Virus record (IMG/VR): IMGVR_UViG_3300021197_000406
Location: 1-28,260 of that record
Source: a virus
Strand: one strand, 5' to 3'
Length of the DNA stretch: 28,260 bases
This document shows, piece by piece, positions 12,871 to 27,441 of the stretch. A program made the position numbers and the translations under genes. The first letter of the stretch is position 1. Every line of letters begins with the position of its first letter. The notes under the pieces are model-generated. The model had not been told where the DNA came from. It ran no database searches and saw nothing but the letters and a program-made list of their open reading frames with translations.

Positions 12871-13005
12871 ATGATAAGAAAACTATGGCGCAAAGCGGTA
12901 GCTGCACAAGAAAGAAAAGCTAACTACTGGAAACTATACCATATGACAGACAGGGAACTACAAGATATTGGCATTGACCGATATGATCTAAAGCGTATGC
13001 TATAG
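12871..13005 (+). CDS. DUF1127 small protein
   Basis: A 44-residue Arg/Lys-rich protein with a strong ribosome binding site (AAGGAG, 7 bases upstream) and its own promoter. It fits the DUF1127 pattern: basic N-terminal helix with Trp (RKLWRKAVAAQERKANYW), then LYHMTDRELQDIGIDRYDL, matching the L..Ms.reL.DIGlsR.di core. In alphaproteobacteria such proteins are small RNA-related regulators linked to RNA turnover, phosphate and growth control. A phage copy might rewire host RNA metabolism; that is inference. It is too small for many gene finders. Its last Leu codon and stop overlap the last Leu codon and stop of the convergent - strand gene. Confidence 0.85.
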   Translation: MIRKLWRKAVAAQERKANYWKLYHMTDRELQDIGIDRYDLKRML

Positions 13006-16000
13006 TCTGTTATCTTCGTACATTTCAATGTAATCTAAAAACCGCATTAAAGTACCAGTGTTCATGTCGCTGATGCTACCTTCATAGCCATTGCCTATAC
13101 TCTTTAAGTACTTAAACGCTGCTTCTTTAGCATCTTTCTTTTGCATCTTTGCTTTTCTTTTTAACGACAGTTGAGCAGCATCATTACCACGGTAGTTTTC
13201 ATCCATGAGTTTTCTTACGGTGTTTGCTGTTTCGTTTTTGACATTCTTAACAATCTGTTCTTTTTGTTTTTGCGTTCCGTTTTGGAAGACCCCTGTGTCT
13301 AACCATTTGGCGGAAGCTCTTTCCATTATAGGAGCAAACAACTCATTAAATATTCTATCATAAGCAGGTAAGTTACTTCTTTCACTAGATTTAAAGTCTT
13401 TCATTTCCGCCATAGAGTAAAGTATCTCTGTAGCGGTTCTGCCAGGTTTAGTAGTAACGCCTATTGCCCTAGCAATTGGGTTGGGATCTTGTATATCTCC
13501 TGCCCTACCACCAACTCGTAAAGTTTTAGTTCCTAGCGCACCAATCTTTACGTCTTTATCTAAAAATATTTCAATAAGGTTATCGACATACTTTGTTGCA
13601 GATATAGCAAATACGTTAGCTCCTGTTTCTTGTCGAGGATCTTTAGCTACATCACTGTCTGCCATGTACCCTACTATCTTGTTAAGGGCATCTAGAGGTC
13701 TAGTAAAACCAGCCGCAATATTACCTGCTGCTCTGTAAACTTGCTGGGCATTTATTTGACGTTTGTCTGGTTCGTCGTTAAACATAACATCCATCATGTT
13801 AAGTAAATCATTTGAAAACTGAGTGTCTCTAGCAACCTGTCCTACAGCAAGTGCATCACCTAAGTCTATTAATAAAGAATTAGAAACGGTATCTCCATCT
13901 TTTACAGTATTAGAAATACGCCCTGCTATCATCCAGACTGACATAGGAAATGTATTTTTAAAATCAACAACTGCACCATTTACTTCTCTTTGATACCAAG
14001 GAAGATTTTTTGCTTTAGCTTCGTCGTCACTTTGCATAGCTAAACTAATAGCAGTAAGTCCTACAACACTACGGTATAGTGCTTCTTTTGGTTCTATTGC
14101 TTCTTGGCCTCTTTTAAATTTAATGCCTTTAAACATACCAAAACCAGAAACATCTGCTTTTTCTCCTACTGTAGCAACACGCCCTATTGTCTTAGCATAT
14201 TGAACTAGGCCACCTAACGACCACTGATAGGTTGTAGCTACTACGCTATTAAAGAACCTACCAAATGGTAGTATCGTACCTAGACCAGGAGTAGCGGATA
14301 CTTTTTCAACTAACTCAGCTAAACCTTTTAGGCCTTGGTCGTCTGTAGTATAGTCTTTAGCAAATACAGATCTCAATGTTGTATCCACTGCACTTCCTAC
14401 AATGTCTGTATCAATTAAGTCAACATCTGCTCGTACTAATTTTCCGTTAACAGAAACTTCTCGTGCATTTATTACATCAGATAAAGTCACACCGTGTTTT
14501 AGTCTTAGAAGTTTATCCATTTCAGTAGTCAACATTAAGGCTTTAGTTACAGAGTCTTGGAGTTCAACAGCAGTTACTCTGTTAGCTGTAGTAACAGCAT
14601 TTTCTACTCCACGAGCGATCTTACCACCCACGCCTTCTTGTGGCATGTTGAACGCAGATAACTTTCTATCAACACCTGCAGTTATAGTTGCTTTCAGTGT
14701 TTTCTGTACGTCTTCGTTGTATAATAAAAATTCTTCATATGCTTGTCTTGTTGAGTATGGGTCAGCTAGATTTTTTAGTTTTTGTACTATCATTGATCCG
14801 TATACAGCACCCATTCTTTGCATTTCTTTATTGCCTGTAATAGAACCGTATGCGTAGGTTACCCCACCATTTAACATTTCAGCTATAGATCTAGCACCAA
14901 AGAACTGAGCAAATCCTTGTACGTTTACAAACGTTGTAGCCGGGGAAGAAACTAAAAGTCTTTTCCAAGCATTTTGAGCAAACGAAGCATATTTAGTTCT
15001 ACTTTTTTGTCCTGCTGCTTCATCTTTAAGTTCTATTCCTCGCTTCATCGCTTCTAGAGCCTCATCCCCTTTAAGGATCGCACCATCTAGCACACGTTTA
15101 GCTACAGAGGGAACGGCTAGTATACGCCCTGCTTCAGAAAACTGTGATGCCATTAGAGAAGGTAATTCTAATCTAATCTGTGTCAGATCACCAAACTTAA
15201 CATGTAAACTTGTGTCTGCTAATAAATCATTTATTTGTCTTAATTGTATGTCTGTCATTTCAGGAATGATGTCTGTTATAAGATCTGATATATTAACTTT
15301 ACCAGTAAGCTTTATGTTAAAGTCATCCATATACATTCTTAAAAGACCATCAACTTGACCTTTTCCTCCTGTACCCAGTACTATGTCTCGTAATAAAGTG
15401 GATAAAGGCATTTCAACGTAATCACTTTCTAGAGGGTTGTTTCCTCCCCGTTGCATTATCTTACGACCTTCGTCTACTTTAGTTTTCCACCCTTTTGCTT
15501 TTTGTAAAACATGTTCTGCAGCTTTTGCACTTTGCGTTTTATTAAGTAAGCTGGTTGCTTTTAAATTAGCCTGGCTTACCATTTCATTAATTCTAAATCT
15601 GTCTTTACTATTTTCAAGACCAGACTTTTCAGCACCCATCTTTTTAAAACCTACATGTGCGCCAACGGATGCAAATCCTGCTAACGAACTAAAGGCACTA
15701 GATATAGCACTGAACTCATCTTGTACGCCAATGTCTATTCTATTGCTTTGAATGGCTGCGTCTTGTAGTACGGCAGCAGTTGCATCAAGAACGCCTGTTT
15801 GAAACACAGGTTTAGAAATGCCTAATGTAGTACCTCCCCCAAAAGCCCTATCTCTGAGGGTTAAAGACCCTGCTTCTTTTTTAGATAGCTTTAATGCTTT
15901 TGTTGCGCCTTGCTTGCTTATGTCTTTAGCTAATTTCTCTTGTGCTTCCAATGCAGATCTTTGTAGAAAGGCTTGTTGGTTAGCTTTAAATATTGATCTT

Positions 16001-16791
16001 CCTACTGCTTTTTTCTTTTTTGCATTAACTTCAGTAGACATTTTTCTAAGCATATTTTCTTTAGCTTTATTTCCTGCTTGCTTGGCTGCTTGTTTTGTAC
16101 CTTTGTCTTTGAGTACGCGCTCTGATGCTTCAGCCATAGCTTTCTTTATTAAAGCCTTACCTGCAACACTACTACCTACAGCACCACCTTTAGCTAATCC
16201 TCCAGTTAATAAACCTACCCAGCTTGTTGGGTCTGCTGCAACAGCAAAGATGTAATCCTTCATGCCGTCAAATGCGCCATAATAACCGTCATTAACGAAT
16301 ACATTACCCATTTGATCATATAAAGAGTATGCTCTCTGGGCTAACATCTTTTCATCGTCAGAGGCGTTGCTTATCCATCTAACTTCTCCGGCAGTTTTTA
16401 CTACGTTAGCTTCAACCCACCGCATATGCCCAATAAAATCTTCTACTACATCGTCATCTGTTTTATTTCCTGCGCCTCGATAGTCTTGACCAAAACGAGA
16501 AATCATTAATGCGCGTATGTCTCTTACGTTTTTACCACTCTTCAAGTCTTCTTTTCTTAAACTTTTATCAGTAGGGTTTATATTATTAGGATTATCAAAT
16601 AGATTTTTACTTTCTAAGGAAGGATACTTTCCGTCATCTTCATTGTCGTAGTAAATGTTTTGGAGAGATGAGGCAGTAGCTTGGTCACTTTCTTTTCTAA
16701 TTGGAGCATCAGGAAAAGCAACAACGCTATTGTCTTCTTCCTCCTCAGGAAGGTTATCATAAAAGATATTACTAAAAGATAGGTCAGCCAT
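13000..16791 (-). CDS. Very large virion protein, candidate internal/ejection protein
   Basis: A 1263-residue protein, by far the largest here, transcribed last in the virion arm. By size and place it resembles the large internal or ejected proteins of podoviruses (T7 gp16-like role), but no lysozyme motif is visible. Residues 1-70 are acidic and hold repeated NI[FY]YDN motifs (residues 8-13, 45-50) and a related NLFDN (63-67). A Gly/Ala-rich hydrophobic segment at about 185-230 (DYIFAVAADPTSWVGLLTGG) could enter membranes. A long Lys/Ala-rich helical region follows. The rest is mixed helical. The stop overlaps the DUF1127 gene. Direct proof of virion presence is lacking. Confidence 0.8.
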   Translation of the reverse strand: MADLSFSNIFYDNLPEEEEDNSVVAFPDAPIRKESDQATASSLQNIYYDNEDDGKYPSLESKNLFDNPNNINPTDKSLRKEDLKSGKNVRDIRALMISRFGQDYRGAGNKTDDDVVEDFIGHMRWVEANVVKTAGEVRWISNASDDEKMLAQRAYSLYDQMGNVFVNDGYYGAFDGMKDYIFAVAADPTSWVGLLTGGLAKGGAVGSSVAGKALIKKAMAEASERVLKDKGTKQAAKQAGNKAKENMLRKMSTEVNAKKKKAVGRSIFKANQQAFLQRSALEAQEKLAKDISKQGATKALKLSKKEAGSLTLRDRAFGGGTTLGISKPVFQTGVLDATAAVLQDAAIQSNRIDIGVQDEFSAISSAFSSLAGFASVGAHVGFKKMGAEKSGLENSKDRFRINEMVSQANLKATSLLNKTQSAKAAEHVLQKAKGWKTKVDEGRKIMQRGGNNPLESDYVEMPLSTLLRDIVLGTGGKGQVDGLLRMYMDDFNIKLTGKVNISDLITDIIPEMTDIQLRQINDLLADTSLHVKFGDLTQIRLELPSLMASQFSEAGRILAVPSVAKRVLDGAILKGDEALEAMKRGIELKDEAAGQKSRTKYASFAQNAWKRLLVSSPATTFVNVQGFAQFFGARSIAEMLNGGVTYAYGSITGNKEMQRMGAVYGSMIVQKLKNLADPYSTRQAYEEFLLYNEDVQKTLKATITAGVDRKLSAFNMPQEGVGGKIARGVENAVTTANRVTAVELQDSVTKALMLTTEMDKLLRLKHGVTLSDVINAREVSVNGKLVRADVDLIDTDIVGSAVDTTLRSVFAKDYTTDDQGLKGLAELVEKVSATPGLGTILPFGRFFNSVVATTYQWSLGGLVQYAKTIGRVATVGEKADVSGFGMFKGIKFKRGQEAIEPKEALYRSVVGLTAISLAMQSDDEAKAKNLPWYQREVNGAVVDFKNTFPMSVWMIAGRISNTVKDGDTVSNSLLIDLGDALAVGQVARDTQFSNDLLNMMDVMFNDEPDKRQINAQQVYRAAGNIAAGFTRPLDALNKIVGYMADSDVAKDPRQETGANVFAISATKYVDNLIEIFLDKDVKIGALGTKTLRVGGRAGDIQDPNPIARAIGVTTKPGRTATEILYSMAEMKDFKSSERSNLPAYDRIFNELFAPIMERASAKWLDTGVFQNGTQKQKEQIVKNVKNETANTVRKLMDENYRGNDAAQLSLKRKAKMQKKDAKEAAFKYLKSIGNGYEGSISDMNTGTLMRFLDYIEMYEDNRL

Positions 16792-16794
16792 TCT

Positions 16795-18690
16795 TTATTT
16801 GCTTTCTTTATTTAATTGTGCTTCATAACGTAAATACCAACCTATAGGATCTTTTTCCGCCTCACTTAATTGTTTAGGATTTTGTTTAAAATATTGAAGG
16901 GCATTTTGATTTATTGCGGATTTGCTATTTTTGTACCATAAGCTTGCTCTTCGTGTAATATCTCTTCTTTGTGCAACTGTTGGGTTATCAAAAGCATAAC
17001 CTAGTCCCTGCATAAGTAAATTACCTGCTGGTTCGTCTTTAAAACCTGTAGCAACTTTATCTCCTAGTTGCATAAGAGCTGACTCTATCTGACTTCTTGA
17101 CAAAATTACTTGTGTATCTTGTATCATTCTAGATTTCTTTTTATCAATTTGTGTTATGTTCTCTGCTCCTGATCTTCCTGCTTTGCTCTCACCATCCTTT
17201 TTAAACTCTGGAAGACTAGCGGCTTTAGCGTCAATTAACTTTTTAAGAGCAGCCTCAGTTATTTGACCTGTAAGAGCAGCCATAATTTCTTGTGACCTTT
17301 CTAAATCTACAGAGCCAAACACTTTTAATCCGTCTTTGCTAATCGGCATAGACACTTGTGCAAGTTTTAACGGGTCCTCTACAAGCATTGTAAATGTTCT
17401 TGGTTCCCCATTTTTTCCAACACCATCCTGTATTTTTACGCTAAATTTATTGTCAGTGTCTGTTAATTCAATTTTCAACACCTTCCAAGTTTTAGGATCT
17501 GAGGGGCCAGGAGTATCAATAACTTTTGTACTTTCAACTTCTGTTACTGCATCCCCATTGGAGTCTACCATAGCAGGGAGTTCGTATCCTAATGTAGCAG
17601 GCCTTGATAATATACTCCTAAGACCAACATCATTAATTACACTTTCCCCATAATTAATTTTTAACAGACCTACTTTGTTATCAATTGTGCTGTGTATTAT
17701 TTCTTTCATGGTTTGTGTTGCATTATTAAACTGTAAAGTATTAGAATTGTAAGAATCCAACCCTACCTCACTTAGGTATTTGTTGAACTCATTGTCATCA
17801 ACACTACTGTTAGCTTTGAAACTAGCATCTATTGGTTGGCCTATTCTTAAATTTTTTATTTTATCATTATTAATAATGTTTTTATCATAAGTTGAAGTTC
17901 TGGCAGTATTAAGAATATTTTGAAGGGATTCAAGTCCATTATCTCTGTTCAACTCTGCCTGTATAAAATTAGTATTGTATCTACTTACATCACGTATTGC
18001 AGAACTTAGGCCATCGTCAAATGAATTTTGTGCAGCTATATCAAATACTCTTGCATTAGGATACTGTATAAATGCACCAGGTATTAAGGATTGATATTGT
18101 GCAGCGTTTGCTGATTGATTAATATCGTATGCACTCATGCCTTCCGCAAATTCCATTTGATCTAGCTCTTGTCTAGTCCTAGCCATTTTATTTCGACCAT
18201 CTAACCTGCTAAAGAAACTATCTTTTGGAGCTTTAAAGTCACCTACTGTATAACTTCCTCTGCCCATAGACTTTCTAATAAAGTCAGTAGTATCTGTTCC
18301 TGAATATTCTAGAAACGCTTCGCTATTACGAACTTCATCCGGTATAACACCCCAAATGTCTTTTACGTATTCTGCGTTCCAAACACCACCAAGTTGTTTT
18401 TGTGCGGATGCCATTTTATTTCTTAGGTCTACTAGTCCATCCGGCCCCATAGACTGAGCTGCTATTATCATATCGTCAGTACCGTACATACTCTTTACTT
18501 GGTTCACAACTCCCAGAGCATTATTAACTACGGTGTCAGCAGCTTTTATTTTAGGTAGATTTCTTGCTGCTAGTTCCATTTGCATGTCATAATAGCTTTG
18601 AGCTTTTTCGTCTGCTCTTTCAAGTTTTTTTGCTTTGGCTCCTAAAAACCCCTCAAGAAAAGCAAGCCCTGCATCACCAAAACGACTCAT
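16795..18690 (-). CDS. Candidate internal virion / ejection protein
   Basis: A 631-residue mainly helical protein lying between two other presumed virion genes. The start (MSRFGDAGLAFLEGFLGAKA) is an amphipathic Gly/Ala/Phe-rich segment, seen in proteins that insert in or follow the ejection channel, followed by a charged helical region (KKLERADEKAQSYYDMQMEL). No enzyme motif is recognised. Its stop lies 3 bases before the start of the 1263-residue gene, and its own start overlaps the previous stop by 1 base, so all three are translated together. Function is inferred only from context. Confidence 0.75.
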   Translation of the reverse strand: MSRFGDAGLAFLEGFLGAKAKKLERADEKAQSYYDMQMELAARNLPKIKAADTVVNNALGVVNQVKSMYGTDDMIIAAQSMGPDGLVDLRNKMASAQKQLGGVWNAEYVKDIWGVIPDEVRNSEAFLEYSGTDTTDFIRKSMGRGSYTVGDFKAPKDSFFSRLDGRNKMARTRQELDQMEFAEGMSAYDINQSANAAQYQSLIPGAFIQYPNARVFDIAAQNSFDDGLSSAIRDVSRYNTNFIQAELNRDNGLESLQNILNTARTSTYDKNIINNDKIKNLRIGQPIDASFKANSSVDDNEFNKYLSEVGLDSYNSNTLQFNNATQTMKEIIHSTIDNKVGLLKINYGESVINDVGLRSILSRPATLGYELPAMVDSNGDAVTEVESTKVIDTPGPSDPKTWKVLKIELTDTDNKFSVKIQDGVGKNGEPRTFTMLVEDPLKLAQVSMPISKDGLKVFGSVDLERSQEIMAALTGQITEAALKKLIDAKAASLPEFKKDGESKAGRSGAENITQIDKKKSRMIQDTQVILSRSQIESALMQLGDKVATGFKDEPAGNLLMQGLGYAFDNPTVAQRRDITRRASLWYKNSKSAINQNALQYFKQNPKQLSEAEKDPIGWYLRYEAQLNKESK

Positions 18691-19256
18691 TAGACAACCC
18701 CCCTAGACATAATTCCATTTCCTTGTTCTGCCATCTCTGTAGGTGCTTCAGAAACATCCGCTTCTACTTCTGGCATAGGTGAAGCTGCTTCTGGTGAAGA
18801 GACATCCGCCATTTCTTGTAACATGTCTGTACCTGCATCCTCTTGTTTTGCCTTACTTATAGCAGCATCTATTAATTGAGATAACCGTCCATGTTCTTTA
18901 CTTTCTTTTATTTCATCAACAGAAACACTTTTCTCTGGTGCGTCAATACCGTAAGTACTTAACATTGACTTTAAAAAGGAAGCAACAATTGGACCAGCTA
19001 ACAAACCAACTTCTACAGTATGCACCCCCTTCATTGCGCCTGCCGTGTGCATAGTCTCAGTGACGGTTTCTAAATCAGCCCCCATCTGAAATAACACAGC
19101 CATGTCATCCATAACTTCTTCATCTGCTAATTTATTTATGTAATGCGTTACAACATCTTCTAGTTTTGATATTTGGGCAGGTCTTTCCCACGGAGAATTT
19201 TTAGGTAAGTCTGTTAAAGATTGACCTGGGACGGCTGATTGTATTAGATTTGTCAT
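18690..19256 (-). CDS. Small virion-associated hypothetical protein
   Basis: A 188-residue acidic protein. Residues 30-100 are a helical core with a hydrophobic Gly/Ala stretch (HTVEVGLLAGPIVASFL). Residues 135-185 are an acidic low-complexity tail rich in Glu, Pro, Ala and Ser that is probably disordered. No family is recognised with certainty. It sits between the three-helix membrane protein and the large candidate ejection proteins, so a structural or chaperone role is likely. Confidence 0.7.
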   Translation of the reverse strand: MTNLIQSAVPGQSLTDLPKNSPWERPAQISKLEDVVTHYINKLADEEVMDDMAVLFQMGADLETVTETMHTAGAMKGVHTVEVGLLAGPIVASFLKSMLSTYGIDAPEKSVSVDEIKESKEHGRLSQLIDAAISKAKQEDAGTDMLQEMADVSSPEAASPMPEVEADVSEAPTEMAEQGNGIMSRGVV

Positions 19257-19270
19257 TTTTTAAATATACC

Positions 19271-19711
19271 TTACTTAGTAAAACCTGCACCAAAGTATAG
19301 ACCTACGATGGCTGAAACTATATGTGTGTCTAGTGGTGTGATTACAAAACCTCTTGCGGCTTTCCATACGATTGCTTCACTGGGACCAAACAAAAAGTTA
19401 AGGAACCCTCCTTGTACTTCTGTATATCCTACAACTACACCTATTTCAGGATACCATACAGCAGCTACCTTGGGTAGTACTATTATAGCACCGACTGCTC
19501 CTAATGCAATAAGTCTTCTTGTCCAAGCAAAGTGCGTATCTTTCCTACCGTACTCTCTAGCGTCTTTTACTGCACCTGCTCTAAACTCAGCACGTTGTAA
19601 TAGCATCTTGTTTTGTTCTGCTTTGGCCTTTATTGATTGACCCCAAATAGTCATAACCCCACCTAAAATAGTGGAACCTAACATGGTAATTAGTTCTAAA
19701 GGAAATCCCAT
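19271..19711 (-). CDS. Three-helix membrane protein, possible holin-like
   Basis: A 146-residue protein with three hydrophobic segments: residues 5-23, 67-90 and 130-145. A charged helical stretch (KAKAEQNKMLLQRAEFRAG) joins the first two. Basic residues Arg65-Arg66 precede the second helix. Similar small membrane proteins occur in the virion arms of marine podoviruses, where they may be holins or channel parts; neither is proven. It directly abuts the gene at 19712, with no gap. Confidence 0.72.
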   Translation of the reverse strand: MGFPLELITMLGSTILGGVMTIWGQSIKAKAEQNKMLLQRAEFRAGAVKDAREYGRKDTHFAWTRRLIALGAVGAIIVLPKVAAVWYPEIGVVVGYTEVQGGFLNFLFGPSEAIVWKAARGFVITPLDTHIVSAIVGLYFGAGFTK

Positions 19712-20452
19712 TTAGTACAGCCCCAGTAAATTATCTTTAGCTGATAACGCCAAAGGTCTTTTTATAGGTTTAAAGAATGAATTAGTTAAGCTCTCTTTCA
19801 TTTTATCTATTCCTAAAATTTGTCCATCCTCACTAAGCAAAGTAGCCTGAAAGTCTTCATCAGATAACTCGTCAATCTTACTAGGATCTTTTGCTATTTC
19901 TTTTTTTACGACAGGGTTTAACGCTCTATAAATTCTTTCATTTAATAAAGCATTATTACGGCTTTGGTACAATGTAGATAGGTCATCTAAATCTTTTTCT
20001 TCATAGTTTATGTAGCTACCAAGTGACTGTTCTTTTTCTTTTATTAGTTGTTCATAAAAGGTACTAGAGTCTTGATCTGCCATATAACCTGAAGCTGGGG
20101 TTTGTTCTAACAAAAGTTTAGTTGTAGTTTTAGGTGTTTTATCTAAAGTACTAGAAATTCGTTTTCTTTCTTGTGCAAAAGCAGCAGCAGTTTTTTTACC
20201 AAACACAAATTCTTCTGCAGAAAAGTTTGTTGCTTTGGAAGCTACGTTACTAAGAAAACTACTTACTTTATCTTTTATACTTACAGGCGTATCGTCTTGA
20301 TTATTATCGTTATCATTATTGTTGTTGTTAGCTTCCGTATTTGATGTTGTATCCTTTACCTCTGGTTTAGAGCCAAGGCCACCAAATTCGCCTTCACCAC
20401 CAAAGCCAAAGCCCATTTGTTCTTGATAAGATGGTTGTACACTATATGTCAT
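19712..20452 (-). CDS. Asn/Asp-rich hypothetical virion protein
   Basis: A 246-residue protein with a Gly/Phe-rich N-terminus (MGFGFGGEGEFGGLG), a polar Asn/Asp run at residues 42-54, an amphipathic helix (VSIKDKVSSFLSNVASK), the segment KKTAAAF, and a charged C-terminal helical half. The same Asn/Asp linker plus helix, and KTAAAF, occur in its neighbour at 20455-21804, so the two may be partial paralogues. Function unknown; probably structural. Confidence 0.72.
   Translation of the reverse strand: MTYSVQPSYQEQMGFGFGGEGEFGGLGSKPEVKDTTSNTEANNNNNDNDNNQDDTPVSIKDKVSSFLSNVASKATNFSAEEFVFGKKTAAAFAQERKRISSTLDKTPKTTTKLLLEQTPASGYMADQDSSTFYEQLIKEKEQSLGSYINYEEKDLDDLSTLYQSRNNALLNERIYRALNPVVKKEIAKDPSKIDELSDEDFQATLLSEDGQILGIDKMKESLTNSFFKPIKRPLALSAKDNLLGLY
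20291..20329 (-). repeat. Asn/Asp codon repeat in the 19712-20452 gene
   Basis: A run of AAT, AAC, GAT and GAC codons encoding 13 residues of Asn, Asp and one Gln, at residues 42-54. It closely resembles two tracts in the adjacent gene. Confidence 0.7.
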
Positions 20453-20454
20453 AT

Positions 20455-21804
20455 TTATACTACCTCTACAAATATACCGTACACTTCTCTTAGAATACGG
20501 ATTTTTTGTTCTCTGTCATTAGTGCCATGAATATATGTTGACGGGTCTAGTAATGTCTCTATTGGTACGCTTCTCAGATCAAAAGTATCGCCATCTTGGT
20601 TGTTATCGTTGTCATCGTTATCTGTTGTCACTTCTGAAGTTTGTGTAGTCGTATCAATTGTAGGTCTTTTTACTGGTACTGGATCAACTATTTTTTGCAT
20701 ATCGTTGTAAAGAGGTTCTATGGCTGCAGAGAATTTCTTACCATAGTCAGACATATAAGTTCCAAGCTTGTCTCTTTTATTATAGCTTCCCTTCGTGTCT
20801 AAAAACTTTTTAGCTCCCGTTTTTCCTCCTAAGTGAGCCATAGCTATAATAGCATCCTTATCTACAACAACACCCCCAATTACTTTTCCGTAATAGTCAT
20901 CTAATTTATTTTTTATAATAAAAGACTCAAGATCTTTAATATGCCATTGCTCTACTCTTTTTTGTAAAGAAGGCGTATTTTTAAAATTTGCAGTACTTCT
21001 GCCCGTTGCATCTGTAAAATCTTTTAGGCGACCTGCTCCAAATTGAAGCCGTCCTATATAGCCTAGTTTATTATCAGCAGCAAAATTGTTACTACTTTCT
21101 GACATTGCAAGTTTATCTATTATTCTTGTTCTTTCATCTTCCTGTGCTTTAATTTTTGCTCCCATCCCTAAGGGTCTAGGTATAGGCCTGTTCAGCGGAT
21201 AAGGTTCTCCTGTGGGAGTAGGTACAAACATAGTCTCATCAGTATCTGCTCCATACCCCGTAGGTGTGCTAGGAGGGGGAGTAAAGCTACCTAACGTAGT
21301 AGGCACAAACATACTTTCACCAGAAAAAGATCCTTTAAATGCCGCAGCAGTCTTTGCACGACTAGGAATTGTTACTAGTCCAGTTTTTGGGGTCTCTAAA
21401 TATTGATTGTATACTTTGTTGTAGTCAAAAGGTGTGTCTATTTTTCTAACTTTTTCCAATTGATCGGCAACACTAGATCCAGAAATAGTTGCAGTTATTC
21501 CAGCAGCAGCTCCTAATAAAGGATTTGCCTGACCAAAGAAACCCATAAATGCTTTTGCTGCATTAGTTACATTTTCAAGTATAGTAGGGGGAGAATCATC
21601 GTTGTCGTCATTGTCGTTATTATTAGAAAAATTAGAACTCATAAGCCCTTGCTTTTCTTTGGTTTCTTTTATGTCTTTGCTAAATATGTCTTTAACATCC
21701 TCATAAATATAACTTACTGCTTCAGTTAAATTTTTATCTTTCTCAGGTTCGGAGTCTCTACCAGTTTCAAAACCCCCCATAGTGCTATAGCTATAGTACC
21801 CCAT
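20455..21804 (-). CDS. Virion-associated peptidoglycan hydrolase (lysozyme/SLT-like)
   Basis: A 449-residue protein with a lytic transglycosylase-like domain at about 225-365. The catalytic Glu is likely Glu236 in MSESSNNF, followed by the LGYIGRLQFGAGRL segment; this E-S plus G-x-LQ pattern is typical of soluble lytic transglycosylase and goose-type lysozyme folds, and the same domain occurs in rhizobial and roseobacter phages. It would open the cell wall at infection. The N-terminal half is disordered, with an Asn/Asp tract (61-70), a Gly/Ala segment and two MFVPT motifs; a second Asn/Asp tract lies at 395-406. I choose ATG 21804; GTG 21816 overlaps the upstream gene. Confidence 0.8.
   Translation of the reverse strand: MGYYSYSTMGGFETGRDSEPEKDKNLTEAVSYIYEDVKDIFSKDIKETKEKQGLMSSNFSNNNDNDDNDDSPPTILENVTNAAKAFMGFFGQANPLLGAAAGITATISGSSVADQLEKVRKIDTPFDYNKVYNQYLETPKTGLVTIPSRAKTAAAFKGSFSGESMFVPTTLGSFTPPPSTPTGYGADTDETMFVPTPTGEPYPLNRPIPRPLGMGAKIKAQEDERTRIIDKLAMSESSNNFAADNKLGYIGRLQFGAGRLKDFTDATGRSTANFKNTPSLQKRVEQWHIKDLESFIIKNKLDDYYGKVIGGVVVDKDAIIAMAHLGGKTGAKKFLDTKGSYNKRDKLGTYMSDYGKKFSAAIEPLYNDMQKIVDPVPVKRPTIDTTTQTSEVTTDNDDNDNNQDGDTFDLRSVPIETLLDPSTYIHGTNDREQKIRILREVYGIFVEVV
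20587..20622 (-). repeat. Asn/Asp codon repeat, C-terminal in the lysin gene
   Basis: A 12-residue Asn/Asp tract (DNDDNDNNQDGD) at residues 395-406. It is the second such tract in this protein. Confidence 0.65.
21594..21624 (-). repeat. Asn/Asp codon repeat, N-terminal in the lysin gene
   Basis: A short AAT/AAC/GAT/GAC codon repeat at residues 61-70 (NNNDNDDNDD), followed by Ser-Pro-Pro and an amphipathic helix. It precedes the lysozyme-like domain by about 165 residues. Confidence 0.65.
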
Positions 21805-21805
21805 A

Positions 21806-24013
21806 TTAGAGACCACCTACAACAGCACCTAACGCTGTCCACAAGCCAGAATACTTTTTTGCTTTTGCATTAGCCATGTTAGCGTCACCTGCAACTTTAG
21901 CTATAGCTAAGTTAGTTGCTCTATCTGCATCATTATTAGCTGTCTGCCAAGAGTAACTCATTAAGTCACGTACTTCCTGCATGTAAGCCCCAAAACCTAA
22001 AGTAGTCATGTTATTAGCTGCAGCAGCAGCATCCCTATTTGCTTGATTAGTAGCTGCATTATCAGTCGTAGCTATTTTTTGATACCACTCTGCATTAGCT
22101 TGCTCTATAATTAAACTATTCTGGGCGTTAAACTGCCCTCTAAGATTTTTCTGTGTTGTATTAAACTCAGCTAACGCATTAGTTTCTCCGGCATTAAATC
22201 TATTCATTGCATTAGTTTGTTCATTATTAAACTGAGCTACTTGGTTTGCCATACTAGCAAAGAATTGGTTTGTTTGATTTTCGCTAGACGCATTAAACTG
22301 GGCAGCAGCATTTTCTGCAGCAGCATCTGACAATATTGAGTTAGCTATTGTCTGAGTTTTAAATAGTTCAGCTTGCTGTTCGTTGTCTAGATTAGCTAAG
22401 TCCATCTGTAAAAATGATTTAGCATTTTCAACTTGTGCTTGTTGACGATTATTTAAGTTAGCTAATTCAAGCTGTGCTATTGTTGCAGCATCAGCCATAA
22501 CTTTAGCGTTCTTAGCATCTAAGTTAGCTAGATCTGCTGTCTGTGCTAGTCTAGCGTTTTCAATAGCGACTTGTTGATCTGCAGTAAAATTCATGTTTGC
22601 TATGTCAGATACTTTAGCAGCGTTAGCTACCCTGGTTTGAAACTCTTGATCAAACTCTATGCCTAAAAATTGCGCTCTTTTCTCTGCTGCAAACATAGCT
22701 GCTTGCTGTCTGTTAGATAAGTTCTGTTCTTCAAACCTAGAAAAAGTAGCGGCATCTATTTGTGCTATAGGTAGTGCAGACTCCATAGCAGCCTGTATAA
22801 TAGCCTGTCCTGCCATACTAGATGCACCTAGCCCTCTAGCCGCCATAGCTGCTGTAGCGGCTCTCATAGCCCCTGCTGCCCAAGGGGGAGGATCTCCACC
22901 CTCAAAGTCTTTCATAAGACTAGTTAACTGGCCTTGTACAGTAGCATCTGTAGAGGGCGCACCTGTTGCGGCTTCAAAGTTAGTTTCTTCTTTAACTTTG
23001 TCCATGTCAACGGTAGAACCTTCAATTAGCTCATCGTCTTCTACCTTACGATCCTCTGTGTCTTCTACTTTTGTTGGGTCTGTAATTTGTTCAACTTCTA
23101 CATCTAAGGATTCTGATGTAGTTGGATCTTTTTCTGCCGCTACTACAGTAGCATCGTCTGATACTTCTCCTGTTGCAGCGTCTACTTCTTTCATAAGTTC
23201 TTCGGTTGCGTCAGTAGTTCCAGTAGTACCAGCTTCAGCGGCATCTGTTTTCGGTTGCGTCACTACATCTGCTGCAGTCTCTGCAGTAGTTCCAGTAGCC
23301 GTATCAGCTTCCCCAGCACCCTCAGTCTTTTCCATCAACCCTTTTTCTGCTTGCTCGTCAGTGGTTGTGGCAGTATCTGCGGTAGTAGTCATAGACTCAG
23401 GATCTGTTATAGCTTTATCTAACAGTTCTGGTGCGCTATCTGTTGCTGTTTCTTTAAATTGTGCAGTAGCCTGTTCTCTTGCTTCTTTTAAACGAGCTAC
23501 TTCAGACGTTGCTGCTTCTAGAGCTGTTTTAAAACTTTCGTCTGCAGGATTTGCTGTTAGTGCATCTCGTGCTGCCTGTTGTGCCGCAAGTGCATCAGAA
23601 TAATTTTGTTGTGCTGCATCTAAAAATGTTTTAGCTGGATCTACCGTACCACCTTCAGCAAATCTTCTTTCTTGTTGATCTGGAGTAGGAAATTGGTTTT
23701 CCATTTTATTTACCTGGGCAGCTTGTAAATCAACAATAGACTCAGAAAACTCAGGGTTGTCTTTTGACATAAGAGTATTAACTTTACCGCGAGCATTTTT
23801 GCTAGGGAATACAAATCCTCCCGTTGCCATCTGACGACCTTCAACTAATGCCATAGCTTTTTCTACTTGCCTAGTATAAAAGGCATTATACCTCTTGTCA
23901 GCATTTATTAAATTTTTTGCTTCATCTGCGGCAAGAGGTGGCCCTTTACGACCTGCCATTGCTAGAATATCATTAATTTGTTTGGTATCAAACCCTGCAA
24001 ATTTAATAGGCAT
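21806..24013 (-). CDS. Repeat-rich candidate ejection protein with 22- and 11-residue repeats
   Basis: A 735-residue protein of four parts. Residues 1-125 include a Gly-rich turn (ATGGFVFP). Residues 130-190 are an Ala/Gln/Glu-rich helix. Residues 190-360 are a very acidic Thr/Ala/Glu/Asp-rich linker, probably disordered. Residues 431-562 hold six perfect-length 22-residue repeats (NLxNxQQA type) and residues 572-637 hold six 11-residue repeats (QFN type). The C-terminus is Ala/Asn-rich and ends in a hydrophobic Gly/Val stretch (LWTALGAVVGGL). 11- and 22-residue periods are typical of lipid-binding amphipathic helices and hendecad coiled coils. No enzyme motif. Likely ejected with DNA; this is inferred from context. 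Confidence 0.78.
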   Translation of the reverse strand: MPIKFAGFDTKQINDILAMAGRKGPPLAADEAKNLINADKRYNAFYTRQVEKAMALVEGRQMATGGFVFPSKNARGKVNTLMSKDNPEFSESIVDLQAAQVNKMENQFPTPDQQERRFAEGGTVDPAKTFLDAAQQNYSDALAAQQAARDALTANPADESFKTALEAATSEVARLKEAREQATAQFKETATDSAPELLDKAITDPESMTTTADTATTTDEQAEKGLMEKTEGAGEADTATGTTAETAADVVTQPKTDAAEAGTTGTTDATEELMKEVDAATGEVSDDATVVAAEKDPTTSESLDVEVEQITDPTKVEDTEDRKVEDDELIEGSTVDMDKVKEETNFEAATGAPSTDATVQGQLTSLMKDFEGGDPPPWAAGAMRAATAAMAARGLGASSMAGQAIIQAAMESALPIAQIDAATFSRFEEQNLSNRQQAAMFAAEKRAQFLGIEFDQEFQTRVANAAKVSDIANMNFTADQQVAIENARLAQTADLANLDAKNAKVMADAATIAQLELANLNNRQQAQVENAKSFLQMDLANLDNEQQAELFKTQTIANSILSDAAAENAAAQFNASSENQTNQFFASMANQVAQFNNEQTNAMNRFNAGETNALAEFNTTQKNLRGQFNAQNSLIIEQANAEWYQKIATTDNAATNQANRDAAAAANNMTTLGFGAYMQEVRDLMSYSWQTANNDADRATNLAIAKVAGDANMANAKAKKYSGLWTALGAVVGGL
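22103..22300 (-). repeat. Six tandem 11-residue (33 bp) repeats
   Basis: Residues 572-637 consist of six consecutive units of 11 residues with Phe at 573, 584, 595, 606, 617 and 628, consensus [Q/R/E]-F-N-[A/N]-x4-[N/A/Q]-[AVL]-[N/A]. A weaker seventh unit follows. Confidence 0.8.
22328..22723 (-). repeat. Six tandem 22-residue (66 bp) repeats
   Basis: Residues 431-562 split into six units of exactly 22 residues. Position 2 is Leu or Phe in every unit (432, 454, 476, 498, 520, 542), position 10 is hydrophobic, and the start is mostly N-[LF]-x-x-x-Q-Q-A. No insertions or deletions break the register. Confidence 0.85.
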
Positions 24014-24025
24014 TATTTATGATCC

Positions 24026-24295
24026 TTAATCTTTTGACGCTATACGTTCTACTGACATACGTATTGCTTTGATGTTCTCATCTATTCGTGCAAGAGCTAC
24101 TGCTTGTCCTTGGACTGCAAGCTCTAGCTTTTCTGTTCGTGTTTCTATTTTTACTATACTCATAGCGTTAGCTTCTATATTAGATTGCATCTGTGATACA
24201 GTCCACACTATGGCGGCTGCTTGTATGACGAGTGCTAGTATAAGTGATACGGGTACGGACTTACTGAGATGCCAACTGTTGTTGTTTTTTTCCAT
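24026..24295 (-). CDS. Small membrane protein with coiled coil, possible holin or lysis accessory
   Basis: An 89-residue protein with one transmembrane helix at residues 14-35 (VPVSLILALVIQAAAIVWTV) and a predicted coiled coil at 40-85 that is rich in Glu, Lys and Ile. The polar N-terminus is short, so the C-terminal coiled coil would face either the periplasm or the cytoplasm. Single-helix proteins of this design occur next to lysis genes in many phages, so a holin or spanin-like part is possible. Nothing more specific can be shown. Confidence 0.68.
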   Translation of the reverse strand: MEKNNNSWHLSKSVPVSLILALVIQAAAIVWTVSQMQSNIEANAMSIVKIETRTEKLELAVQGQAVALARIDENIKAIRMSVERIASKD

Positions 24296-24297
24296 AG

Positions 24298-25413
24298 CTA
24301 CATATCTGCATCAAAGGTTATGCCAGGTGTAGAAGTTGCAGAATACGTCCAACATCCTTCTCCTACTACGCCACTTGCTGAAGCTAATGTTAAACCAATT
24401 AATGTGGACTTTACAGATTGAAAAACTACTGAATCTATAGCTGTTACATTAATGTTGTTTCCATCATTAGTGTCGTGAATAACAACAGAACCAGAAGCCC
24501 TTAATGTAGCTGTTGGATTAGCTCTCATTGCAACTGGATGTTGCTGTAAAATTTGTGCATTGCTAGTTGTTCTAAAACTTCCGTTTGCCATACCACCTGT
24601 GTGAGCATCTGTTGAGCTACAACCTATGAAAAAATATCTCTGACACAGTAACATTTCTTCTCCTCTTGAACGGTGTTCAAAATTTGTAGCTTGCGAACCT
24701 ACCTCTAATTGAATACCAGTTATAAAAAACTCTCTATCTGTACTATCAAAAAATTGTGTATTAGATGAGTGAGAACGTACATTAGCAGCATATGTTGACC
24801 ACGCATCTTCTACGAAAGTACCACCATTATATGTAGCTCCAGCATTAAGCCAAAAACCTAAAGCTATAGACTCTCCACTGTCGTTATTAAATGCGCCAGT
24901 AGTATCAGCAGGAATGGCTATTGTAATTTTATTCCAAGATGTAGTTACTGCAAATCTTTTATAGAAACAACGGTTATTATCAAAGTCACCTACCTCTACA
25001 TTATATGTAGCTGCTTGATCTCCTTTAACATAAAAAGACAAAGTCATTGGCAGTGCATCAGATGTTCCTTTTTTAATGTGTTGGCAATCAAACCCCTCAA
25101 TAGAACAACCTAAAGATAATCGTTCTCCTGCTGCAATAGATGTATCTGCTGTAGTACAATCCATTTTTAAAGAATTAGCAAATCCATCAGGAGCATCTGT
25201 TGATTGCGTCATTGTAAGCCGCCCAGCGGTTGTTGCATCTTTGTGTATTTTCCATCTATCTGGTCCAAAATATCCAGTAGCATTACCTACACCTGTAGTT
25301 GAAACAGATCTTTGTGATATTTGCATACCGCCATTGATTACGATGTTTTTCCTGCCTGACGGTTGGTTCGTTAGTGTGTCACCTGACTTGGCTAACTCTG
25401 CTGCTTTACTCAT
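24298..25413 (-). CDS. Tail-fibre or carbohydrate-binding virion protein
   Basis: A 371-residue beta-rich protein of a type common in marine phages. It starts with a spacer, then RKNIVINGGMQISQRSVS and GPDRWKIHK, the usual entry to this fibre domain, followed by a jelly-roll-like module (residues 60-240) with SLKMDCTTAD and LSFYVKGDQ. LLCQRYFF marks the end of that module, and a short C-terminal domain follows. It probably binds host surface sugars. It is close to the big fibre gene, 3 bases downstream. Confidence 0.8.
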   Translation of the reverse strand: MSKAAELAKSGDTLTNQPSGRKNIVINGGMQISQRSVSTTGVGNATGYFGPDRWKIHKDATTAGRLTMTQSTDAPDGFANSLKMDCTTADTSIAAGERLSLGCSIEGFDCQHIKKGTSDALPMTLSFYVKGDQAATYNVEVGDFDNNRCFYKRFAVTTSWNKITIAIPADTTGAFNNDSGESIALGFWLNAGATYNGGTFVEDAWSTYAANVRSHSSNTQFFDSTDREFFITGIQLEVGSQATNFEHRSRGEEMLLCQRYFFIGCSSTDAHTGGMANGSFRTTSNAQILQQHPVAMRANPTATLRASGSVVIHDTNDGNNINVTAIDSVVFQSVKSTLIGLTLASASGVVGEGCWTYSATSTPGITFDADM

Positions 25414-25416
25414 ACT

Positions 25417-27441
25417 CTATGCCTCCAATGCTGCTAGACGAGCCTCAAGAGCATCGTTCTTTTCTGATAGTTCTTGTATTGCCTTGACAAGTATTGGTAC
25501 AAACTTACTATATGTCAGACCATACTGCTTGCCATCATCTGTAAGGTTAGTTGTGAGGTTAGTTTTATCAGCTATGGTATAACCAGCGGCTTTCTCTAGT
25601 GCTTCAACAGCCTGTGCTTTAAACCCTACATCCAACCAATCTTCTTTATGTGTACCGTCATGTGTTATGGTACTTACGTCATCTCCATAGTTAGAGCGTT
25701 TATCCCACTTATATGTTACAGGTTCTAATCCTTTAACAAAATCTAATCCTAAGTCTAATGCAGTAAAGTCAGTTTTATCTCTTTCATCTGAAGCTACAGT
25801 CCAATCAATTTGAATGTGAGCGTTTGTATTACTTGCATTACCTATAACTATTTGATTATCACCTGTTGATATAGATCCTCCCGGCTGACTAGCGTTACCA
25901 GCAGTAGTACCTAAAAGTAAATTATTAGAACCAGTTGTCAATGCATTAGCGGCTAAAGCACCAACAACTGTATTATGTGGGCCAGTAGTTACTTCATCAC
26001 CTGCTTGATAGCCTATGTATACCCCATTCATATCTACATTGCCACTAGGGTTTAATTGTTCTGCTGCTTCGTTACCAATAGCAACAGTATTATCTCCTGC
26101 TACGTTCGTTAATAAAGCATTTACTCCAACAGCAGTGTTCTGTATTCCTGTAGTATTTGCATCTAACGCTCTTTTACCAAGTCCTGTATTGTCACTAGCA
26201 GTGGTGTTAGCTCTTAAAGCATTCCAACCTAAAGCTGTGTTTTGTGCGCCTTCAGTGTTAGAGAGAAGTGCCTGATACCCCACAGCCGTGTTGTTAGACG
26301 CTGTAGTGTTTTTATTGCCAGCAAGACCCCCAACAAAAGTGTTAGTTTGTCCTGTGGTATTGCTACCCCCTGCAAAACCACCAACTGCTGTGTTATAAGA
26401 ATCTGTACTACTCGTAAAGTTTTGAGACTGTAAAGCACCAATTCCTATTGCAGTATTTAGGTCACCTTGTGTATCTAAACTTAATGCGTTTTGTCCAACT
26501 GCTGTATTAGAATTACCTACAGTTAATGCGTCACCAGCTAAAGCACCAATAATAGTGTTAAGTGTGCCTGTGGTTACTGCATTACCTGATTGGAAACCTA
26601 CTGCTGTGTTGTAAGAATTTGTAGATGATGTAAAGTTTTGTGTAGCTAATGTACCCTGACCTATTGCAACTGAACGATGGCCCTTTGTATCTGCACTTAA
26701 TGCTGTCTTACCAACTGCTGTATTTTCATTTCCAGTAGTTATTGCATCACCTGCAAGCGCACCAACCACTGTGTTTTCAGTACCTGTAGTTACTGCTGTT
26801 CCTGCATTATAACCCATTGCTGTGTTGTTAGATGCTGTAGTGTTAGCAGCAAGAGCTGATTTACCTACGGCTGTGTTAGTAGCTCCTGTGGTGTTTGCTG
26901 TTAAAGCATCCGCACCAATGGCAGTGTTATTGGAGGCTGTAGTGTTAGCGTCTAAAGCTCCATACCCCAAGGATGTGTTGTTATCCCCTGTAGTAATCGC
27001 AGTACCAGCTTCATCACCCACGACAGTGTTGTAGTTACCACCAGCCTGTATTGAGTTACCTGCATTAACACCAGCAATGTAGTTAGATGTTCCTGCTGTT
27101 GATGATGAGTATCCTGCTGCAGCTATTGTTCCGCTAAATGTACCACCATCTTTGGCACTCACAGAATCTGCTACACTAAATATGTCATGCACTAGCAACT
27201 CTACTGTGTCACCTACAGATGCACCCTGTACTAATACAACGGATGTACCTGTTGATGCTGCATAATCTGTGGCTGGTACTAAGAGTACACCATTCTGATA
27301 TACGTCCATGTACAATGTGTCAGTGTAGGCTAGTGTAATACCTGCGTCATCGTTGCCACTAAATGTCGTTTGCCCTGCAGTAGCCGTGTAGATAAACCTA
27401 CTACGTACTCCAAAGTCTGATCCTCGTCCTATATATGGCAT
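25417..27441 (-). CDS. Tail fibre with NTAVG beta-roll repeats and self-cleaving S74 chaperone
   Basis: A 674-residue fibre. Residues 1-95 form a virion-binding N-terminal domain (PYIGRGSDFG). Residues 138-534 are about twenty-two tandem repeats, mostly 17 residues, of NT[AV][VIM]G type, resembling the head of YadA-like trimeric adhesins and building a long trimeric beta-roll shaft. Residues 551-674 are a peptidase S74 intramolecular chaperone, with Ser551 and Lys556 (SDERDK) as the likely catalytic pair; it helps trimer folding and then cuts itself off before Ser551. A coiled coil (EKNDALEARLAALEA) closes the protein. The start overlaps the previous stop by one base. Expected to be the main host-range determinant. 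Confidence 0.92.
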   Translation of the reverse strand: MPYIGRGSDFGVRSRFIYTATAGQTTFSGNDDAGITLAYTDTLYMDVYQNGVLLVPATDYAASTGTSVVLVQGASVGDTVELLVHDIFSVADSVSAKDGGTFSGTIAAAGYSSSTAGTSNYIAGVNAGNSIQAGGNYNTVVGDEAGTAITTGDNNTSLGYGALDANTTASNNTAIGADALTANTTGATNTAVGKSALAANTTASNNTAMGYNAGTAVTTGTENTVVGALAGDAITTGNENTAVGKTALSADTKGHRSVAIGQGTLATQNFTSSTNSYNTAVGFQSGNAVTTGTLNTIIGALAGDALTVGNSNTAVGQNALSLDTQGDLNTAIGIGALQSQNFTSSTDSYNTAVGGFAGGSNTTGQTNTFVGGLAGNKNTTASNNTAVGYQALLSNTEGAQNTALGWNALRANTTASDNTGLGKRALDANTTGIQNTAVGVNALLTNVAGDNTVAIGNEAAEQLNPSGNVDMNGVYIGYQAGDEVTTGPHNTVVGALAANALTTGSNNLLLGTTAGNASQPGGSISTGDNQIVIGNASNTNAHIQIDWTVASDERDKTDFTALDLGLDFVKGLEPVTYKWDKRSNYGDDVSTITHDGTHKEDWLDVGFKAQAVEALEKAAGYTIADKTNLTTNLTDDGKQYGLTYSKFVPILVKAIQELSEKNDALEARLAALEA
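25840..27030 (-). repeat. Tandem 17-residue (51 bp) NTAVG repeats
   Basis: Residues 138-534 of the fibre. Most units are 17 residues (for example NTAIGADALTANTTGAT); two are 21 residues and hold QNFTSST. A 72-residue block (216 bp) is duplicated in tandem, so the two long units lie at about 26631 and 26415. Confidence 0.85.

Follow-up and report, generated by a model that had tools for sequence, protein, structure and literature searches.

A hendecad-array protein with length set in steps of 11 residues in an ejection-type gene module of HMO-2011-like podophages

Locus, source phage and relatives

The window analysed here is the whole stretch of 28,260 nucleotides in IMG/VR record IMGVR_UViG_3300021197_000406, a viral contig of 28.3 kb that represents a fragment of an HMO-2011-like podophage and holds the open reading frame (ORF) of the repeat protein described below. 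Relatives of this protein were found in 27 phage records and in more than 400 viral contigs, and include those of HMO-2011, roseophages CRP-1/2/3 and others, pelagiphages HTVC033P/103P/104P/115P, phiM6, CHOED, MQM1, and Slicky01. These relatives, together with the replication genes of the contig (DNA polymerase A with a DnaJ-type zinc insert, and a B12-dependent ribonucleotide reductase), placed the contig among the HMO-2011-like podophages. The source of the repeat protein is an abundant marine short-tailed phage, and the tails of its isolated RCA phage relatives are short (PMC6918029). When two divergent members were used as queries, 27 phage records of the same groups were returned again; thus the family looks closed at the search sensitivity used. 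The features of the locus were as follows.

21806..24013, minus strand: ORF of the repeat protein, 735 aa, with relatives in other phages and dN far below dS in residues 405-712
22979..23656, minus strand: residues 120-345, low-complexity region rich in Ala, Thr, Glu and Asp, variable in length and probably disordered, from its sequence and from N-terminal lengths that vary without an 11-residue rule
22769..22942, minus strand: residues 358-415, conserved small helical domain (..WAAGAMR..RGLGASSMAGQA..ALPIA), also present in relatives with a different downstream array
22085..22771, minus strand: residues 415-643, complete hendecad array between its anchors, 228 residues = 20 x 11 + 8
22328..22723, minus strand: residues 431-562, 22-residue part of the array, two-faced helix with hydrophobic registers 4/7/0 and 6/9/2
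22103..22300, minus strand: residues 572-637, 11-residue part of the array with one hydrophobic face, inside the predicted helix of residues 544-666
21809..22084, minus strand: residues 644-735, C-terminal helical tail, ending in a Gly-rich hydrophobic segment, GLWTALGAVVGGL
20455..21816, minus strand: 453-aa protein with an endolysin/transglycosylase-like domain at residues 237-359 (endolysin PHROG, E=2e-15), overlapping the end of the repeat gene
18690..19256, minus strand: 188-aa conserved module protein with the motif PGQSLTD.PKN.PWE...GLMAR
16795..18690, minus strand: 631-aa module protein that by position alone corresponds to a gp15-like ejection protein
13000..16791, minus strand: 1263-aa protein of the final module gene, by position a counterpart of a gp16-like ejection protein

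When the window protein and its relatives were scanned against Pfam and PHROG, no match was obtained outside a member bearing an S74 domain, and a PDB search with the repeat protein by sequence and by profile returned nothing credible (one weak match to an unrelated protein, E=0.26). The match of one relative to Gemin7 was weak, probably due to chance, and was rejected. A 314-aa open frame lies on the plus strand (22659-23603) opposite the low-complexity region of the repeat gene and is most likely a composition artefact.

Gene neighbourhood

The repeat gene is followed by the gene of the hydrolase-domain protein, two smaller ORFs, and then the genes of the 188-, 631- and 1263-aa proteins. Comparable gene orders were found in nine phage records, often without the small insertions. 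With small insertions allowed, the order of repeat protein, a protein of about 150-190 aa, one of about 500-650 aa, and one of about 800-1640 aa was located at the end of the late genes in HMO-2011, CRP-2, phiM6, CHOED, MQM1, and HTVC104P; the last gene of HTVC104P, which is the positional counterpart of the 1263-aa gene, carries an internal-virion lysozyme motif. In position and domain content only, the repeat gene starts a module resembling podophage ejection modules. The preliminary description had placed the protein next to a cell-wall lysin and had named it a candidate ejection protein, and the endolysin match and the ejection-type module agree with both claims. The spike and fibre genes (24298-27441) are separate from the repeat gene and lie directly upstream of it.

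The likeness to T7 gp14/15/16, DEV gp73/72/71, and SU10 gp20-24 consists in a late-operon module that ends with a mid-size and a very large protein, and a peptidoglycan hydrolase domain within the module is common to the window and the podophage ejection modules. Unlike the T7, DEV and SU10 modules, the window module has an extra long hendecad protein without a clear transmembrane segment. Sequence and profile comparison revealed no relationship of the repeat protein to T7 gp14/15/16, DEV gp72/73, or phiX174 H. AlphaFold modelling and fold search of the 631-aa neighbour against the gp15/gp72 fold had low confidence and gave no match, and in low-confidence models neither this neighbour nor the repeat protein showed fold similarity to solved ejection proteins. 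In SU10, gp20-24 occupy a comparable place and are five proteins lost on genome release, one of which is a transglycosylase (PMC9509320). No credible sequence similarity to the window module and no 11-residue period were found in SU10 gp20-24; accordingly, this parallel rests on position and on the published experiment.

Several other ORFs of the neighbourhood were inspected. Most relatives retain the 188-aa protein, encoded close to the repeat gene or immediately after it; it had no PHROG match. Asn/Asp runs (NNNDNDDNDD, NNNNNDNDNNQDD, and DNDDNDNNQD) occur in ORFs 20455-21816 and 19712-20452 (minus strand), both of which also carry a KTAAAF motif and a P[IV].RP motif; BLASTP of these two ORFs found no convincing homology. 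A 146-aa protein with several hydrophobic segments (19271-19711, minus strand) and an 89-aa protein with one hydrophobic segment and a polar helix (24026-24295, minus strand) resemble products of lysis or membrane genes interspersed within the ejection module.

Continuous hendecad register of the repeat protein

Six gapless 22-residue units in residues 431-562 and, after a short break, six 11-residue units in residues 572-637 had been described previously. Both blocks were confirmed, with Leu/Phe at 432, 454, 476, 498, 520, and 542 in the first and Phe at 573, 584, 595, 606, 617, and 628 in the second. The identity autocorrelation relative to shuffles was z=4.8 at lag 22 and z=6.2 at lag 44 for residues 420-570, and z=6.7 at lag 11 for residues 565-645, so that the 11/22 period claimed earlier stands about 5 to 7 standard deviations over shuffles. 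Lags 11, 22, 33, and 44 ranked highest in the autocorrelation of the protein. Six Phe/Trp residues at spacing 11 occurred in 0 of 5000 shuffles of residues 420-660, the longest run being five, which was seen once.

The break between the blocks proved not to be real. Counted from Trp643, the Leu/Phe marker moves from register 9 in the first block to register 7 in the second; this shift of two residues accounts for the 9-residue gap (542 to 573 = 31 = 33-2). A single hendecad register runs without interruption through the 22- and 11-residue blocks, and nothing but the position of the Leu/Phe marker changes. The array is also longer than the two blocks together, reaching from Pro415 to Trp643 (22085-22771). 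Its 11-residue period, helix-compatible core positions and indels in steps of 11 are those of the hendecad helical arrays as a structural class.

Region 405-712 of the repeat protein is under strong purifying selection, dN being 10 to 20 times lower than dS over 308 codons (dN/dS about 0.05-0.1). Tandem Repeats Finder detected no 33- or 66-bp DNA array under the protein repeats. The absence of a DNA tandem repeat, together with dN far below dS, indicates that selection acting on the protein maintains the repeat pattern.

Quantised length of the array across relatives

Net length change was determined from an alignment of 90 sequences over residues 405-640, and also to 700 and 712. No net length change was found in 74 of the 90 sequences, and every change in the remainder was a multiple of 11. 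In an alignment-free retest, the distance from the conserved Pro (ALPIA; Pro415) to the conserved Trp (NxxW; Trp643) was 8 mod 11 in 144 of 145 proteins, which fell into 13 length classes (118, 140, 151, 162, 173, 184, 217, 228, 283, 316, 360, 426, and 536). A contig of a marine metagenome-assembled genome added class 239, giving 14 classes from 118 to 536 residues, or 10 to 48 hendecads. The sole off-register protein (L101; 317) differed by +1, with an extra Ala near the array end; L017 and L083 were rejected as off-register cases since they were false matches of the N-terminal anchor. The lengths of the segments before and after the array followed no 11-residue rule.

At least 11 changes of length class were required by a tree of the flanking regions plus the array end. 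Were residue counts unconstrained, 11 independent changes would all be multiples of 11 with a chance near (1/11)^11. Duplication of a 33-bp unit could by itself yield steps of 11; however, off-register indels are nearly absent from this region of strong purifying selection, which argues that the register is also selected. Some metagenomic members (L118, L143, L144, and L150) exceed 1000 aa and have 38-48 hendecads, which at full extension would correspond to about 60-80 nm of helix.

Helix faces and structure prediction

On an 11/3 wheel, the hydrophobic residues of the 22-residue part fell into two stripes (registers 4/7/0 and 6/9/2) separated by about 180 degrees. Charged residues are located at registers 1 and 5 and Gln/Asn/Ser at registers 3 and 10, so that charges lie on one side between the two stripes and Gln/Asn on the other. 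Four length classes, computed separately, each gave the same arrangement beyond shuffles, with the hydrophobic axis at about 20/200 degrees, charged residues at 74-124 degrees, and amides at 283-319 degrees. The face signal of the window protein alone is hardly above shuffles, and the pattern thus rests on the family. The 11-residue part has a single hydrophobic face formed by Phe at register 7, Ile/Val/Met at register 4, and Leu at register 0, a 4, 7, 0 spacing that corresponds to a-d-h; a bundle or trimer is therefore possible in this C-terminal block.

The array contains 23-35% Asn+Gln, few Lys/Arg, and no clearly membrane-like stretch; its mean Eisenberg hydrophobicity (-0.04/-0.10) and its moment at 11/3 periodicity (0.10/0.16) are both low. 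Of the two kinds of helix to which the period had been assigned in the preliminary description, the hendecad was retained and the apolipoprotein-like lipid-binding helix was not.

AlphaFold predicted the repeat protein as helix almost throughout, with low confidence (mean pLDDT 61.6, pTM 0.21). Residues 544-666 were predicted as a single helix of 123 residues, which had the best pLDDT of the model (about 70-80). A fold search with the low-confidence model of the array gave no match (best E 3.8, meaningless).

S74 domain in relatives

In some relatives, the C-terminal tail is followed by a Peptidase_S74 domain. This domain is best known from homotrimers. It was found at the C-terminus of the proteins of CRP-3 and of the metagenomic member L130, and tblastn suggests that CRP-235, CRP-738, and CRP-212 also have an S74 end. 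The closest outside-family matches of the S74 domains of CRP-3 and L130 are mostly annotated as DNA injection/ejection proteins, and some as fibre or spike. A PHROG match to phrog_4287 (DNA ejection protein) was obtained only for the S74-bearing L130; the window protein, which lacks S74, had no match to this profile. The S74 ejection proteins (phrog_4287; 7-11 gp020, GAP52, and H6/1 gp17) have the same C-terminal S74 as CRP-3 and L130, but only the S74 columns aligned in profile comparison. An 11/22 period was also present in H6/1 gp17 (z up to 4.6 and 6.1) and absent from Salmonella phage 7-11 gp020 and GAP52. In Vibrio phage PVA1, an S74-bearing ORF that carries no annotation of its own in the record is located upstream of the annotated ejection genes (L155:3001-3216).

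Discussion

Two elements of the reading proposed below are already known from other phages: siphophage tape measures are built from 11-residue units in variable copy number (PMC3271669), and phiX174 H forms a hendecad tube lined with amides. In the literature searched, no family of 10 to 48 units in an ejection-type module of short-tailed phages was found, and phiX174 H was the one relevant case of phage hendecads.

The DNA pilot protein H of phiX174 forms a decameric helical tube that has been solved, with a lumen of Asn/Gln/Arg and a role in DNA passage (PMC7354561). On the same wheel, its hendecads place hydrophobic residues at 266, charged residues at 147, and amides at 344 degrees. The repeat-protein family likewise has hendecad helices and, in composition by register, a comparable wheel with charges opposite Gln/Asn and hydrophobics between. 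In contrast, H has 3 hendecads plus heptads against 10-48 hendecads in the repeat-protein family, and phiX174 is a tailless ssDNA phage whereas the source of the repeat protein is a dsDNA podophage.

The 11-residue step is almost never broken over the range of 10 to 48 units, and this suggests a helix that acts like a ruler and builds a DNA-delivery tube. The reading preferred here is an ejected virion protein whose hendecad helices assemble into a Gln/Asn-lined DNA conduit of set length, with a probability of roughly 0.45. We infer that the protein is present in the virion, is ejected, forms an oligomeric tube, and takes part in DNA passage. As a late virion protein, it would be ejected with or before the DNA; its helix of 20 hendecads would associate laterally with further copies, each contacting its neighbours through the two opposite hydrophobic faces, and so build a tube. 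In this tube, the Gln/Asn side, which has the smaller angle, would line the lumen and the charges would face outwards. The tube and the 453-, 631-, and 1263-aa neighbours may then carry DNA through the envelope. The packing register would survive only if residues were gained or lost 11n at a time, and this would fix the array length in whole hendecads. The role in lining a DNA conduit proposed in the preliminary description fits a two-faced helix with a Gln/Asn side. Against a conduit, the helix spans about 18 to 80 nm across the family, which is hard to match with a single barrier thickness.

A more specific form of the conduit, hendecad-quantised from 10 to 48 units and tuned by lineage, perhaps to the host envelope, is doubtful; if true, it would unite a tube wall like that of the phiX174 pilot protein with the unit-based construction of tape measures. 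The strictness of the length rule makes envelope crossing by a short-tailed phage directly accessible to experiment: exact addition or removal of hendecads could show whether infection follows register or length.

The strongest rival, itself rather unlikely, is a tape-measure-like rod, in which a hendecad coiled coil of 2-6 strands, placed in the core or along the portal/tail axis, would act as a spacer or plug during assembly and leave before the DNA. Siphophage tape measures have 11-residue units with Phe/Trp markers in variable number (PMC3271669; TP901-1, PMC5099701); the repeat-protein family shares the unit, the aromatic marker and the variable number, the Phe-every-11 pattern is also present in the C-terminal block, quantised length is the signature of a ruler, and tape measure proteins have also been linked to DNA passage. 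The Phe run of the window protein is six, one short of the pattern used in PMC3271669, and the protein had no PHROG tape-measure match. However, the phages that carry the gene have podophage gene content and short tails (PMC6918029), leaving no long tube to measure. Their gene adjoins an ejection module and is not placed between tail-tube and tail-tip genes, and the two opposite hydrophobic faces of the Asn/Gln-rich 22-residue units exceed the needs of a simple rod.

The array could also be the shaft of a homotrimeric tail fibre or needle, with S74 as the C-terminal folding domain in some members, and the S74 of CRP-3 and L130 and the fibre genes directly upstream are in line with this. Nevertheless, it is unlikely, since the protein is predicted helical almost throughout without a beta-rich receptor-binding domain, spike and fibre genes are present separately, the outside-family S74 relatives are mostly annotated for DNA injection/ejection, and a trimer has no need of two opposite hydrophobic faces. 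Slightly less likely again is an internal role as scaffold or head core protein, limited to the organisation of packaged DNA or ejection proteins and without a conduit. The internal proteins of some podophages are a core or disordered mass (PMC13320782), and long Asn/Gln-rich helices could contact DNA, but such a role would account neither for length changes in whole hendecads nor for the separation of charged and amide residues on the helix faces. Apolipoprotein/synuclein-type amphipathic helices lying on the host membrane, as suggested in the preliminary description, are highly improbable: such proteins share the 11/3 periodicity and 11n insertions would likewise keep an amphipathic face, but low hydrophobicity and moment in place of one broad high-moment face, hydrophobics in two opposite stripes in the first block, the Asn+Gln content with few Lys/Arg, and the lack of a clearly membrane-like stretch all oppose it.

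A 957-aa Asn/Gln-rich repeat protein (L154) with weak similarity and without the family anchors may be a separate family. Proteins of Burkholderiales and Zixiibacteriota metagenome-assembled genomes (L166:5341-6906, L165:311-1735) contain the RGL.NSSM...ALPIAQQDAQ domain, which in L166 is followed by an array of 36-residue period in place of the hendecads; for comparison, the TP901-1 tape measure also has 18-residue repeats.
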